Below are positions 2,072 through 5,704 of a DNA stretch of 64,000 nucleotides, piece by piece (position 1 is the first letter of the stretch; the number at the start of each line of letters is the position of its first letter). Origin of the DNA: Arthrobacter sp. zg-Y844 (GTDB taxonomy: Bacteria; Actinomycetota; Actinomycetes; Actinomycetales; Micrococcaceae); the NCBI RefSeq assembly GCF_024385465.1, contig NZ_JANFLS010000001.1:372001-436000 (forward strand). Direction: 5' to 3'. Both the position numbers and the translations under genes were made by a program. The notes under the pieces were generated by a model. It searched no databases. It worked only from the letters and a program-made list of their open reading frames with translations, and had not been told where the DNA came from.

Positions 2072-3484
2072 TCAGCGTGCCGGTGTCTGAGACCCTGTCC
2101 CTGATTCCCGTGCGGCCGGCGCAGGAATCCGGGCATGCAGCCAGGCGGAGGGAACATCGGTACCGAGATCGAGCTGGGCCCCGGTGGCAGCCGTGTGGAC
2201 GGTCCGCACGATCGCATCCCATACGAGGGACGAGGGCTGCGCGTCCAGCCGCATACCGCCGTCAACGGGGATTACGGAGTAGTGGCCGGCTTCAGCGGCA
2301 TGCAGCCAGCGGAACCCTGCGTAGGCCTCAACATGCGTGATGGACCAACTACTCCAAGGCGCGTTCCAAAGCCGCCCCACGGCTTCATCCGATCCAGGGG
2401 GCAGCGGCGCCGATTCCGAGGCCACCCGGGCATCAAACCGGGCTTCATCGATCACGAGCGGTGCGTGCCGGAGCGGCCATGCGGGGGCGACCCCGGCCCA
2501 GGCAGCCAGGGCCAGCGGAAGGTGCGCGTCCCGCATCAGCCGGATCTCGCGGCCGATTACATCACCGGCACCGTAGAACGACGGATCGGCGAGCAGCAGG
2601 GCCCGACCGGATGCCATCCACACTTCTGCGTTCCGCACCTCGCTGCCGCGCCGAGCAGTGAGCGTCAGGCGGGCCTCCGGATCGACAAACGGCGTGAGGT
2701 AGTCCTTCCCCTTCACCGTGGCCTGTCCCGATTCCCTCAGCAGATCCGAACGGACCAGTTCCCGCACGGCCTCCTGCTGTCCTGCAAGGTCAAAACGCCC
2801 CAGCTTTTCCCGGTGCCCAAGCGTCTGGAACAGTTCGACGGCGGCAGCCGGCAGCACCATCCCGGCGGGGACATACGGCTGCTCGGCCGAAATCCGGCTA
2901 AGGTCTTCCACCACCGTCCTGCGCTGTTCCGAAGCGAAATAGTCGGGCATGGGGTCGGACCGGGTGACCAGGTCAAACCCCGACCAGTCCAGGACATGCG
3001 TTGCGCCATGGTCCTTCATTTCCAACTGGTCCACGAGGTACTCGAAGAGCGCCTTCTGGCCTACGTGGTCCTCGAGCGCGTAGCTTGCCGTAGCTTCCAG
3101 AACCCCTGCCCCGATGACCCAGACCCAACGGTCCACACAGACGGTGTGCCCGTCCGCCTCATAAACAAAGCGGTGCCGCCGCCCGGGCAGTGCCTGGCCA
3201 GACTCGCGGTCAAACACCTTGGGCCACTCGTCAACGGAGAGGACGTGGATCGGAGCAAGAGTCGCCATGGTCTCGGCCAGCCCCGCCGTGGACAGGCGCA
3301 GCAGCGACGCTCCCCCGTTGCTGCCGGCCCTGATGACCAGGTTCGGCCGGAAACGGCCGGCCGGAACGGGCGGGTGCGCAAGGATCCACATGCTGCCGGT
3401 ACCGGGAAGCTCTTCCCATCCCGGCGGAAGGACTGCACTGACACCACGGAAACCGACTCTCGCGAAACCGGAAAACGGGTCCAT
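2072..3484 (-). CDS. Hypothetical protein, LpqN/PsbP-like N-terminal region, last gene of ESX-like cassette
   Basis: A 470-residue protein with no signal peptide or membrane segment. Residues about 10-160 (SAVLPPGWEELPGTGSMWIL, PNLVIRA, then alternating strands ending in EYLVDQLEMKDH) have the rhythm of the LpqN/PsbP/DcrB fold often found beside actinobacterial ESX/WXG100 genes. The second half (LPAAAVELFQTLG to LWNAPWSSWSITHVEAYAGF) is unlike anything I can name. Its ATG shares one base with the stop of the membrane-protein gene before it (TGATG at 3482-3486), so the two are translationally coupled. The cassette context suggests a cytosolic chaperone or accessory role, but that is inference. 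Confidence 0.65.
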   Translation of the reverse strand: MDPFSGFARVGFRGVSAVLPPGWEELPGTGSMWILAHPPVPAGRFRPNLVIRAGSNGGASLLRLSTAGLAETMATLAPIHVLSVDEWPKVFDRESGQALPGRRHRFVYEADGHTVCVDRWVWVIGAGVLEATASYALEDHVGQKALFEYLVDQLEMKDHGATHVLDWSGFDLVTRSDPMPDYFASEQRRTVVEDLSRISAEQPYVPAGMVLPAAAVELFQTLGHREKLGRFDLAGQQEAVRELVRSDLLRESGQATVKGKDYLTPFVDPEARLTLTARRGSEVRNAEVWMASGRALLLADPSFYGAGDVIGREIRLMRDAHLPLALAAWAGVAPAWPLRHAPLVIDEARFDARVASESAPLPPGSDEAVGRLWNAPWSSWSITHVEAYAGFRWLHAAEAGHYSVIPVDGGMRLDAQPSSLVWDAIVRTVHTAATGAQLDLGTDVPSAWLHARIPAPAARESGTGSQTPAR

Positions 3485-3903
3485 CAGAAATTGCTCCGTC
3501 CGTCGGCCTGGGACGACATTCCGCCCCCGCTGGTACGCCTGGCAGCTTCTTCCATGCGCCGGCGTCGAGCGGCCTTCTTTTCATCCCTTATCCACTGCGG
3601 CTGCAGGAACGGCGGCATCCAGAAACTGCCCAGGACCCCCAATATTCCTGCGATAAACATAAGAAGGATCAAGAACATGGTCACCAGCGCGTTTATGCCG
3701 CCGTCCATGGCGAACTGCGTCAGCGGCATCAGGATAAAAGCAGCACCAAGGTAGGTTGTGGCAAGCGCCGGTTCTCCGGACAGCACAATGTTGAGGCCGG
3801 TCCGGTAGTGGCGGAACCTGCCGTTGTAAACGAGGAGACCGCAAAGCATAAGAATGGTGCCCAGTGGAATCAGGATCAATGCCCCGACAGTATTGGCGTT
3901 CAT
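3484..3903 (-). CDS. Small membrane protein of ESX-like cassette, unknown function
   Basis: A 139-residue integral membrane protein. Hydrophobic segments lie at about residues 6-26, 47-63 (weaker) and 70-96, and the protein ends in a strongly basic, soluble tail (RDEKKAARRRRMEEAARR) that should stay in the cytoplasm. No family is recognised. The gene lies 96 bases downstream of the WXG-like protein gene and overlaps the following gene by one base. By position it could be a membrane partner or an immunity-like protein for the secreted candidate upstream, but the sequence itself does not show this. Confidence 0.65.
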   Translation of the reverse strand: MNANTVGALILIPLGTILMLCGLLVYNGRFRHYRTGLNIVLSGEPALATTYLGAAFILMPLTQFAMDGGINALVTMFLILLMFIAGILGVLGSFWMPPFLQPQWIRDEKKAARRRRMEEAARRTSGGGMSSQADGRSNF

Positions 3904-3999
3904 AAATTCGACACACGTCCGATCTTTTAGTGCGGCGGGACGGCGGCACGCCCGTGCCGGAGTCAGCCTAATCTATCCCATGGATTTGCCGGGGGACGG

Positions 4000-5334
4000 T
4001 TATCCCATCCAGCCAAATACGCGGTCCTTCACGCTGTCAATTGTCTTCTCGACGTTTTCCTTCGCATCCTCCACGGCCTTGCCCACGTTTTCCTTGGCAT
4101 CATCCACGGCCCTGTCGACGGTTTCCTTTGCGTCTTCCAAAGCCTTTTGCGCCTTTTCCGCTGCTTCTTCCGCGGCCTTATACGCGTTTTCCGCTGCTTC
4201 TTCCGCCTGTTCGGCCAAGGCCTCAGCGGCCTGCTGGGCCTGGTCCAGCCCAGGTCCGCTCAGGTAATCCCATCCTTCGCGGATTCCATCTCCGGCCCAC
4301 TCGGTAACGGTCTTGCCCCCCAGTACATCCAGGGGCTGCTCCATTGCCCACCCGACTGCAGAGCCGACAATGAAGCCGACAACCGTGCCTGCCGGGCCGG
4401 CGAAGCTTCCAACGCCAGCCCCGATGGCGCCGGCCCCCAGCCCGCCGACGACGCTGGCGCCGGTACGGAACCCCGCGATCTTGCTCGCCTCAGCGCGCCG
4501 TTCCTCCTCCGTCATCTCCGGGTTGCTGGCCAGCAGGTCGTTGTACGCCTCCTGTTCCTGGTCCTGATAGGTGAAATAGGCACCGCCGACCGTGAGCACC
4601 CAGCCGCCGCCCTTAACGGCCTTTCCACCCAGTCCTTCCTCGTGCGGAACATGAAATTTGTTCGAGTTGTCGACGTAGTCTTTGTACCGTTGGCTGCGAT
4701 CGTAAAGAAAATCGTTTCGCTCAGGCCGGATGTCGTAGTACGCGCCCGGTCCTGCGGGATGCTGTGAAGTGCGGAACCGCACTCCTCCAAGCGCAGTGTC
4801 CATTACGTTGAACATCACGCCCGCGAACTGCGTTGCCATAAAAGAGAAAAACGGATTGGTTTCCCCTGTTGTATCGGACAAGGCGGATACACAGTTCTCT
4901 TCCAGCCAAACAAATTCTGCGGCCAATTGGTTGACCGTGCCCTGCAGCGTGTCTCGTCCGAGGTCCGCCATGTCCTGCTGTTCCTCACCAAAGGAATCGC
5001 TGTTCACAAAGGCGTTATGGGCCGCAATATCTGCAAGGACCTGGGTGCGTGCGGTTTCCAGGTGGGCAATTCCGTCAGAAAACTCCTGGAGTGCTTTGGC
5101 TACCTGCTCGCATGCGGAGCTGACGAATCCGCCGTGGGGGGTGATATTCGCAAAAACACCGTAGGCCACCTCGGCCTCCGGCGCCTGGTAGATGCCCTGC
5201 AGGCCATTCCATTGAGCGGACGCGTCCGCGATGGCGTTTTCGAGTTCGGGCCCTGCGCCGCGAACCGCATCGGCACCCGCTGTCAGCTGTGCAGGGGAAG
5301 GCCAGCCCTGGAGCCCCGTTGTGTCAAAAGCCAT
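4000..5334 (-). CDS. WXG/LXG-like protein with glycine-zipper core and helical repeat tail
   Basis: A 444-residue protein, starting at the ATG at 5334 one base after the upstream stop. An in-frame ATG at 5382 lies inside the upstream gene and is rejected. Residues 1-150 are helical with an early QWNGLQGIY stretch, as in the N-terminal module of WXG100/LXG secreted proteins. Residues 293-328 are a glycine-rich zipper (VVGGLGAGAIGAGVG, then AGPAGTVVGFIVGSAVG), the sort of segment that inserts in membranes. Residues 363-436 are an Ala/Glu/Lys helix built from repeats such as EDAKENV, resembling LEA or apolipoprotein 11-mers. No enzymatic toxin domain is visible. Coupling to the small DUF6507-like gene suggests the two products pair. 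Confidence 0.7.
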   Translation of the reverse strand: MAFDTTGLQGWPSPAQLTAGADAVRGAGPELENAIADASAQWNGLQGIYQAPEAEVAYGVFANITPHGGFVSSACEQVAKALQEFSDGIAHLETARTQVLADIAAHNAFVNSDSFGEEQQDMADLGRDTLQGTVNQLAAEFVWLEENCVSALSDTTGETNPFFSFMATQFAGVMFNVMDTALGGVRFRTSQHPAGPGAYYDIRPERNDFLYDRSQRYKDYVDNSNKFHVPHEEGLGGKAVKGGGWVLTVGGAYFTYQDQEQEAYNDLLASNPEMTEEERRAEASKIAGFRTGASVVGGLGAGAIGAGVGSFAGPAGTVVGFIVGSAVGWAMEQPLDVLGGKTVTEWAGDGIREGWDYLSGPGLDQAQQAAEALAEQAEEAAENAYKAAEEAAEKAQKALEDAKETVDRAVDDAKENVGKAVEDAKENVEKTIDSVKDRVFGWMG

Positions 5335-5335
5335 C

Positions 5336-5704
5336 TCAGTACACCGCCACGGATGAGTGGCCGCCGGCGCTGCCTGCCTCAATCGGCAGTTCGGGGGCCT
5401 GGGTCATGACACCGCAGGCGTCGTCTGCCATCTTCTGGTCGCCTTCGAGATAGGCAGTTACAGCCTGGCCGACGCCGTCGACTGCGTTCTGCACCCGCGC
5501 AGCGGCCCATTCGGCCTGAAGGGCCACAATCTCGCGTATTCCCTCCAGGGCAGCGGCAACAGGGACACTCCCGCAACCGTCCGTTGCCTGGGAATAGGCG
5601 TTATCCAACGACGTGGCGGCATCCGCGATTCCTTCGTCGTCCCGGACCCGGGTCAGCAGACCCGAACAAGCGTCAACCTGAATTGTGTAACCGCTCAAAC
5701 TCAT
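5336..5704 (-). CDS. Small ESX-type helical protein, DUF6507-like
   Basis: A 122-residue, cysteine-containing, largely helical protein. The C-terminal stretch AVTAYLEGDQKMADDA is the part that recalls DUF6507, a small actinobacterial family related in size and organisation to WXG100 proteins; I am working from memory of that family. There is no signal peptide, as expected for ESX-type substrates. The start at 5704 is preceded by a G-rich Shine-Dalgarno (GGGGGAA). It is the first gene of the four-gene minus-strand cassette and its stop is one base from the start of the WXG/LXG-like gene. Confidence 0.65.
   Translation of the reverse strand: MSLSGYTIQVDACSGLLTRVRDDEGIADAATSLDNAYSQATDGCGSVPVAAALEGIREIVALQAEWAAARVQNAVDGVGQAVTAYLEGDQKMADDACGVMTQAPELPIEAGSAGGHSSVAVY

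Follow-up and report, generated by a model that had tools for sequence, protein, structure and literature searches.

How could a T7SS-like effector cassette work when no secretion machinery is encoded beside it? We addressed this question for four adjacent genes of Arthrobacter sp. zg-Y844, whose genome comprises 3.37 Mb in nine contigs. The window analyzed here is a 64,000-nucleotide stretch of that genome (contig C1, C1:372001-436000), and positions are counted from its first letter. Within positions 2072 to 5704, four minus-strand open reading frames (ORFs) encode products of 122, 444, 139, and 470 amino acids (aa), with intergenic gaps of 1, 96, and -1 bases. An initial annotation had likened them to ESX substrate-chaperone sets and toxin-immunity cassettes, and had suggested a possibly new contact-dependent or envelope system that uses a distant type VII apparatus. 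The substrate-chaperone and toxin-immunity logic is supported by our analysis. We consider it likely that the four genes are a self-contained unit serving an effector, probably antibacterial, that inserts into membranes and is exported by a type VII secretion system (T7SS) encoded elsewhere in the chromosome.

A recurrent four-gene cassette in a genome that encodes EccC and EccD

The coordinates and gaps of the four ORFs were confirmed, and a codon-usage gene caller recovers all of them, trimming the start of the 470-aa ORF to give 439 aa. The identical four-gene order is present in all six named Arthrobacter and Paenarthrobacter loci that were located via the 470-aa protein (6/6; seven sets in all). 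Because of this recurrence, the cassette is real and beyond chance: an orphan T7SS effector cassette. Among the four proteins, only the 122-aa product exceeds a curated cutoff, matching DUF6507 (PF20117) with 48.1 bits against a Pfam gathering threshold of 25, in line with its first label. We found no mention of DUF6507 in the literature searched, and sequence searches of solved structures gave nothing convincing for it.

The genome has five matches to the FtsK/EccC-type domain (PF01580), none of which falls within the window, and we therefore rejected the idea that the window holds an apparatus of its own. Contig C4, however, encodes EccCa (729 bits; cutoff, 509), EccCb (619; cutoff, 347), and EccD (112; cutoff, 95), as judged by the NCBI cutoffs (EccC/EccD models TIGR03924, TIGR03925, and TIGR03920). 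The same contig encodes a pore-forming-ESAT-6-family protein (153.8 bits; cutoff, 100) and a WXG100-like protein below its cutoff. The initial statement that secretion machinery is missing is thus true of the window only. Since a complete EccC and an EccD above its cutoff are encoded elsewhere in the genome, no distant or new apparatus is needed.

DUF6507 and EccC also occur together more widely. EccCa-model matches of some sort are present in all 197 genomes of the family to which Arthrobacter belongs; when only EccCa matches above the cutoff are counted, DUF6507 is present in 47 of 52 EccC-positive genomes and in 5 of 145 EccC-negative ones (both in 47 genomes, neither in 140; DUF6507 total, 52; EccCa total, 52). 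Twenty-five of 121 DUF6507 places, spread over 23 genomes, lie within 10 kb of EccCa. The DUF6507 profile behind the 121-row alignment was built iteratively from a training set that included EccC-adjacent members, so its match beside EccC is not independent. In this alignment, position 85 is Y in 49 rows and F in 37, position 89 is D in 113, and an aromatic-xxx-D/E pair is found in 81 of 121. The aromatic residue of the candidate YxxxD motif is absent from several Arthrobacter relatives. Lap1 partners of LXG toxins are reported to employ FxxxD (PMC9600955).

Other genes near or resembling the machinery deserve mention. A 136-aa ORF with one hydrophobic stretch (L017:11703-12113) adjoins EccD and, by eye, is perhaps a reduced EccB; the ESX type may be minimal. 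Apart from the ESX locus, a 1341-aa stand-alone ATPase with FHA and EccC-like FtsK domains is encoded at L018:5704-9729 (C1:195001-213000), with scores of 244 and 200 bits against the EssC and EccCa models, both below cutoff. Near EccC in many genomes (e.g., L131:7459-8636, L144, L165, and L176), we observed a tandem of an ~111-aa DUF6507-like protein, an ~101-aa protein that is an ESAT6_3 family member in the zg-Y844 genome, and a second DUF6507 gene; this second gene precedes one for a 670- to 1095-aa protein, several of which have toxin domains.

The 444-aa protein contains a conserved glycine zipper

A hydrophobic segment of the 444-aa protein contains a glycine zipper that is both extended and conserved, as in TelE- and EsxX-type toxins, which bears out the membrane-active-looking middle first ascribed to it. 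Such a zipper is reported to be the effector part of known T7SSb toxins (PMC10434224, PMC12744356). Seven zipper motifs lie in a hydrophobic context between residues 294 and 328. G305, G309, G316, G320, and G324 are the sole invariant residues among 45 aligned members (L120 omitted), which were selected by a zipper rule, so their invariance is partly by construction; the same five glycines, along with other residues, are also invariant in eight members picked via the 470-aa protein without any zipper rule. Of 300 other genes in the loci that encode 200 aa or more, 5 satisfy the rule; of 34 genes in the window, one does so, the effector gene itself.

The remainder of the protein is harder to assign. 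Its AlphaFold model is poor overall (predicted local distance difference test [pLDDT], 55.7) and better in the N-terminal helices (residues 14 to 44, 54 to 110, and 117 to 155); it also shows a helix at residues 363 to 440. With this low-confidence model, the top nine Foldseek matches are all PPE chains (E, 0.024 to 0.14; probability, 0.97 to 1.00). Predicted structures unrelated to WXG100/LXG helical hairpins had been named as grounds for abandoning the initial interpretation; the PPE matches do not point that way, though their E values are weak. W42 is present in at least 90% of the 45 aligned zipper members. We consider the N-terminus to be helical and possibly PPE-like. At the level of sequence, the WXG/LXG label does not hold, with WXG100 scoring 8.5 bits against a cutoff of 27.3 and no LXG among 23 Pfam matches. 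No enzymatic family reaches its Pfam cutoff, and sequence searches of solved structures returned helix-rich low-complexity matches only. Sub-cutoff matches to Apolipoprotein (over the Ala/Glu-rich helix), DUF6861 (over the hydrophobic stretch), and Mce4 (over the N-terminal helices) were rejected as composition.

The 470-aa protein is predicted to combine two chaperone-like folds

Sequence searches of solved structures with a profile of the 470-aa protein gave nothing convincing, and a fold search was therefore required; among Pfam matches of 20 members of this protein family, none had an E value below 0.03. The AlphaFold model, built from eight sequences, has good confidence (pLDDT, 81.6; predicted template modeling score [pTM], 0.83). 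In this model, residues 207 to 438 (the C-domain) match the EspG chaperones of mycobacterial ESX systems with Z scores of 10.3 to 11.6 over 209 to 220 aligned residues (root mean square deviation [rmsd], 4.5 to 5.1): EspG1 (5vba; Z, 11.6), EspG3 (4w4j; Z, 11.2; 220 residues; rmsd, 4.9), and EspG5 (6vj5; Z, 10.3). Foldseek likewise finds EspG3 (4w4j; E, 1.7e-6; probability, 1.00).

The top match of the N-domain is an uncharacterized Jonesia protein (3lyd; Z, 15.6), followed by PsbP (2xb3; Z up to 14.6), the Eag chaperones EagT6 (6xrf; 13.4) and SciW (6xrr; 13.2) of the type VI secretion system (T6SS), and LpqN (6e5d; 12.9, residues 12 to 158); the T6SS immunity proteins TplEi/Tli4 and Tsi3 fall in the same range (Z, 10.6 to 13.5). 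We favor Eag for this domain on the basis of context, because the fold scores do not distinguish Eag from the other proteins that share this fold. The earlier label of LpqN-like protein needs correction: there is no LpqN match in Pfam, but the fold search does find LpqN for the first half, and the second half has the EspG fold. By eye, no signal peptide or lipobox is visible.

Thirty of the 197 family genomes encode relatives of the 470-aa protein. Once G139 is dropped, 29 remain, and all 29 carry both EccC and DUF6507. After exclusion of 16 of 82 places that match the N-domain only, and of G139, which has such a match only, 66 EspG-like places remain; DUF6507 lies within 6 kb of 46 of these and in 40 is upstream on the same strand. 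A profile search of 396 genomes of the phylum, in which four first-look candidates per genome were scored, found one weak N-domain-only match beyond zg-Y844 itself, making the absence of relatives outside the family an only moderately tested one. The zg-Y844 genome has two further DUF6507 cassettes on contig C3. In one (L015), DUF6507 is followed by genes for a 382-aa zipper protein and a 152-aa membrane protein, in which no similarity to the 139-aa protein was detected, and then by genes for 157-aa and 283-aa proteins, which amount to a split 470-aa protein; here the N-domain is encoded as a gene of its own (157 aa).

From its predicted folds, we read the 470-aa protein as a two-part chaperone whose client is a T7SS effector that inserts into membranes. 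The chances seem to us about even for a fuller version of this reading, in which an EspG-type T7SS targeting domain and an Eag-type domain that shields transmembrane (TM) helices would hold both ends of the PPE-like zipper effector, so that it could cross the cytosol to EccC without inserting itself into the membrane. The separately encoded domains of related cassettes would then represent the unfused form.

The N-domain accompanies zipper proteins after DUF6507

From 100 stretches, we compiled 89 distinct proteins encoded after DUF6507 and classified them by a rule of three zipper motifs. Of the 46 zipper proteins, 43 are followed by the N-domain and 39 by the EspG-like domain; among the 43 others, the corresponding numbers are 0 and 3. 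The N-domain occurs both fused and as a free gene, with 27 of 49 N-positive proteins also having the C-domain. Among the three zipper proteins lacking a called N-domain, those at L118 and L120 reflect gene-calling misses (profile matches over residues 29 to 432 and 9 to 430).

The stretches contain 121 DUF6507 genes, 11 of which were assigned no downstream protein (L043, L094 twice, L112, L127, L133, L137, L161 twice, and L177 twice); the zg-Y844 cassette in L016, described below, was also missed at this step. Of the 121 places, 23 were not newly added to the sample: three from zg-Y844 and one from G159 were already included, and the remaining 19 were weak or partial matches, lay on short contigs, or fell within a merged region. 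Three further proteins of 458 to 471 aa (L114:5938-7314, L157:5938-7314, and L160:5854-7269) have a hydrophobic C-terminal hairpin, fail the zipper rule, and have no detected N-domain. The gene after the L114 and L157 proteins encodes a product of 487 to 494 aa that is EspG-like positive and N-domain negative, while the product following the L160 protein (513 aa) has neither domain detected. These following proteins may represent a divergent form of the 470-aa putative chaperone.

The association bears on the alternative that survives best, though we judge it unlikely: that the N-domain makes no contact with the zipper and, as an ordinary LpqN/PsbP-like domain, serves only to hold or dimerize the EspG-like chaperone. 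The LpqN, PsbP, Mog1, and Eag folds are indistinguishable by these scores, and the zipper association has few independent origins, both of which this alternative accommodates. It does not readily explain why the N-domain tracks the zipper in 43 of 46 cases against 0 of 43, and a shared client fits an N-domain that is both fused and free better than a simple linker does.

The 139-aa membrane gene is retained where the effector is lost or replaced

The 139-aa protein has hydropathy peaks of 2.86, 2.47, and 1.34. We compared its site across genomes by anchoring on the flanking genes, which are 83 to 100% identical in L085 to L087 and L089 to L092 and 65 to 89% identical in L081 to L084. L090 has an intact cassette (88 to 95% identical). 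In L085, which belongs to the same species and whose six outer flank genes are 99 to 100% identical, only the 139-aa gene (88%) and a zipper fragment of another effector are found, and in L087 the cassette is reduced to the 139-aa gene alone (91%). L086 and L091 have the 139-aa gene (91 to 92%) beside an entire diverged cassette (effector, 25%; chaperone, 36%). L089 has a lone diverged membrane gene (37%), whereas L092 and L081 to L084 have other cassette versions at the same site, two of them in L082. L088 has a related gene (47%) and none of the flanks.

The 139-aa gene is thus retained where the effector was lost or replaced: it is kept at 88 to 92% identity in four genomes, and its reading frame is open in all four. 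Pairwise ratios of nonsynonymous to synonymous substitution rates (dN/dS) among six 139-aa genes are 0.10 to 0.25 (15 pairs), which could also reflect constraint predating the loss of the effector. This pattern resembles that of orphan immunity genes and makes the 139-aa product a candidate immunity protein. For the staphylococcal toxin EsxX, the polytopic ExiCD is reported to guard against the secreted toxin, and exiC and exiD are also described as orphans in toxin-less strains (PMC12744356).

Could the 470-aa protein itself be the immunity factor? Next in standing, and in our estimate improbable, is the explanation that this protein, or its N-domain, confers immunity in the cytosol solely by neutralizing the zipper, as do ExiAB and TipE (DUF5085), and is dispensable for export. 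Soluble ExiAB is reported to sequester the EsxX zipper in the cytosol, both ExiA and ExiB binding it and co-occurring with the toxin (PMC12744356), and TipE to neutralize TelE (PMC10434224). The N-domain fold is shared with TplEi/Tli4 and Tsi3, and no DUF6507 gene was detected within 6 kb of 20 of the 66 EspG-like places. Yet the C-domain matches the fold of a dedicated T7SS substrate chaperone, and the lone gene at this site in relatives is the 139-aa gene, not the 470-aa one. Cytosolic shielding and neutralizing of the zipper may, moreover, be a single task.

A 99-aa gene adjoining the cassette (positions 1762 to 2061) has 69% identity in the same-species genome, although the outer flanks are 99 to 100% identical there, and is unmatched at the site in several relatives; it seems to move together with the cassette. 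An ATP-binding cassette (ABC) transporter, of iron-siderophore type in appearance by eye, also adjoins the site.

Some other proteins after DUF6507 carry toxin domains

The 43 non-zipper proteins encoded after DUF6507 (458 to 1095 aa) include matches, by Pfam at an E value of 0.001, to Abhydrolase_8 in 8, the DNA/RNA endonuclease domain Endonuclea_NS_2 in 7, TNT in 4, and Tox-REase-5 in 4, with some domains sharing one protein. Among ten chosen proteins encoded downstream of such genes, three match a YezG-like immunity family (one above cutoff), each adjoining an Endonuclea_NS_2 match; the YezG-like match was absent at a fourth Endonuclea_NS_2 neighbor, L149. T7SS export of WXG/LXG polymorphic toxins, with Actinobacteria among the taxa listed, is already described (PMC3482391). 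The initial remark that no known toxin domain is present accordingly stands for this copy but not for proteins in the same place in relatives, and an extended glycine zipper is itself the effector part of known T7SSb toxins.

The zg-Y844 genome has a third DUF6507 cassette at L016:8661-12561 (C3:100001-120000). Its DUF6507 protein carries a long tail of proline-rich repeats, and the other products are a 625-aa protein that matches Abhydrolase_8 (77.8 bits) and a lipoprotein-like protein of 194 aa; neither an EspG-like nor an Eag-like partner was detected in it.

Mycobacterial PPE proteins have roles in the envelope, and this background, the lack of an enzymatic family at cutoff in the effector, and the adjoining, iron-siderophore-like ABC transporter would be accommodated by a T7SS envelope or permeability module, in which a PPE-like channel acts in the producer's own envelope with no antibacterial role; the nuclease, TNT, and REase toxin domains of equivalent proteins after DUF6507, the toxin-immunity-like turnover at the site, and the orphan retention of the membrane gene make this very unlikely.

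A working model and the evidence against it

These results suggest how an effector cassette could draw on machinery outside its own locus. Through its PPE-like N-terminus, the effector would pair with the DUF6507 protein as a helical heterodimer, with YxxxD as the export mark for EccC. In the cytosol, the EspG-like domain, whose fold is predicted, would bind the PPE-like end of the effector, as EspG does with PE-PPE. The Eag-like domain would cover the zipper, preventing both aggregation and attack on the producer's membrane from inside, the task of ExiAB for EsxX. EccC would take the effector complex, and once the effector has been exported and has met a competitor, its zipper may oligomerize in the target membrane and depolarize it, by analogy with EsxX and TelE. 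The 139-aa membrane protein might protect the producer and its kin against the secreted effector, in the manner of ExiCD.

Several observations weigh against this model. On the side of the machinery, EccB was not found in the genome (TIGR03919; best score, 12.9 bits against a cutoff of 154), five EccC-positive genomes have no detected DUF6507, five DUF6507 genomes have no EccC above cutoff, and 40 of the 121 DUF6507 rows do not have the aromatic-xxx-D/E pair. For the effector, the pLDDT of the model is low (55.7), and in VIA-align comparisons eukaryotic BAR domains score equal to PPE. For the proposed chaperone, the EspG and DUF1795 families are absent from the five Pfam families matched by 20 members at E values up to 1, the Eag, LpqN, PsbP, Mog1, and T6SS immunity folds are inseparable by N-domain scores, and the N-domain would also be compatible with a role in cytosolic neutralization alone, like that of ExiAB or TipE. 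For the candidate immunity protein, the precedent of TelE is reported to run the other way, in that its six-pass neighbor gave Escherichia coli no protection and the soluble TipE did (PMC10434224, PMC12744356).

The association of zipper and N-domain calls for similar caution. L122 is a true exception to the pairing. The three-motif threshold was chosen after inspection of the data, though alternative thresholds change little (one motif, 43/50 versus 0/39; five motifs, 40/42 versus 3/47). On a tree of the N-termini (L120 excluded), the zipper needs three changes, leaving at most three independent pairs, with which a sign test is powerless; we therefore do not take the Fisher P value as independent evidence. 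The counts are a strong description and a weak independent proof.

If the model is true, the PE-PPE-EspG export logic best known from mycobacteria extends to antibacterial effectors of the Arthrobacter family, and DUF6507 gains a testable role. A T7SS would then handle pore-forming cargo in the cytosol via a dedicated TM-segment chaperone of T6SS-type fold, by means other than ExiAB, and nonpathogenic Arthrobacter strains could become safe models for EspG-type chaperoning. The unusual feature is the putative chaperone that joins EspG-like and Eag-like domains; polymorphic T7SS toxins themselves are already known. The literature searched held no publication on an Eag chaperone together with type VII secretion.

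Coordinates of the cassette

The features of the cassette are collected in Table 1. A scan for promoters and terminators gave results at chance level.

Table 1. Predicted features of the DUF6507 cassette, in positions of the window
Feature	Position	Strand	Evidence
DUF6507 protein, 122 aa; predicted to partner the effector in PE/WXG100-like fashion and to target it	5336..5704	-	PF20117, 48.1 bits
YLEGD at residues 85-89 of the DUF6507 protein; candidate T7SS export motif (YxxxD)	5438..5452	-	Sequence
444-aa putative effector with PPE-like N-terminal helices, a glycine-zipper segment, a variable helix rich in Ala/Glu, and a short tail at the C-terminus	4000..5334	-	
Effector, predicted helical domain for trafficking at the N-terminus (residues 1-155), containing WNG and YxAPE	4870..5334	-	AlphaFold, Foldseek, alignment
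Effector, glycine-zipper hydrophobic segment, residues 294-328	4351..4455	-	Motif count, invariant glycines
Effector, Ala/Glu/Lys-rich helix, residues 363-440, missing in most aligned relatives	4015..4248	-	AlphaFold helix; alignment of 8
Small membrane protein of 139 aa with 2-3 membrane helices; candidate immunity protein	3484..3903	-	Hydropathy, retention without effector
470-aa two-domain putative chaperone	2072..3484	-	AlphaFold pLDDT 81.6, pTM 0.83
470-aa protein, N-domain, residues 1-160; Mog1/PsbP/LpqN/DUF1795 fold, Eag-chaperone-like	3005..3484	-	Fold search
470-aa protein, C-domain, residues 207-438; EspG chaperone fold	2171..2866	-	Fold search

Comparison with known systems

The cassette shares parts with several characterized systems and differs from each. 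With the Mycobacterium tuberculosis lipoprotein LpqN it shares the fold of residues 12 to 158 of the 470-aa protein (6e5d; Z, 12.9), which, unlike LpqN, has no visible signal peptide or lipobox and is fused to an EspG-like domain. With WXG/LXG polymorphic toxins, as described in PMC3482391, the proteins encoded after DUF6507 share a helical N-terminus, swapped toxin C-termini, and sometimes neighboring immunity genes; the group examined here is DUF6507 partnered and lies within one actinobacterial family.

The T6SS Eag (DUF1795) chaperones EagT6 and SciW have the N-domain fold (Z, 13.2 to 13.4) and, like the 470-aa protein, have a neighboring effector with a GxxxG hydrophobic segment. Eag "knob" residues are reported to fit GxxxG/A holes of effector TM helices (PMC7773334). 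Those chaperones belong to the T6SS and have clients with N-terminal TM regions, whereas here the N-domain has no DUF1795 Pfam match and is fused to an EspG-like domain.

EsxX/ExiAB/ExiCD of Staphylococcus aureus and TelE/TipE of Streptococcus gallolyticus have in common with the present cassette a helical T7SS N-terminus and an extended zipper. As reported in PMC12744356, the EsxX system also has the division of labor proposed here, with a soluble zipper binder that co-occurs with the toxin and polytopic immunity proteins that also occur as orphans. EsxX and TelE are, in contrast, described as Firmicute LXG proteins whose soluble partner is DUF5085, with a GyrI-like rather than an Eag- or EspG-like fold, and ExiCD as two six-TM proteins, where we find one protein with two to three TM helices.

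Another parallel is the PE-PPE-EspG export unit of the mycobacterial ESX systems (e.g., PE5-PPE4-EspG3 and PE25-PPE41-EspG5), which likewise combines a small helical partner with a YxxxD-like motif, a larger WxG helical partner, and a globular chaperone. EspG is matched by the C-domain (Z, 10.3 to 11.6), and PPE chains rank first in Foldseek for the low-confidence 444-aa model. In the Arthrobacter cassette, the 20 members examined gave no Pfam match to an EspG family, DUF6507 stands in place of PE, the effector carries a zipper, and the EspG-like domain is fused to, or encoded beside, a second chaperone-like domain.

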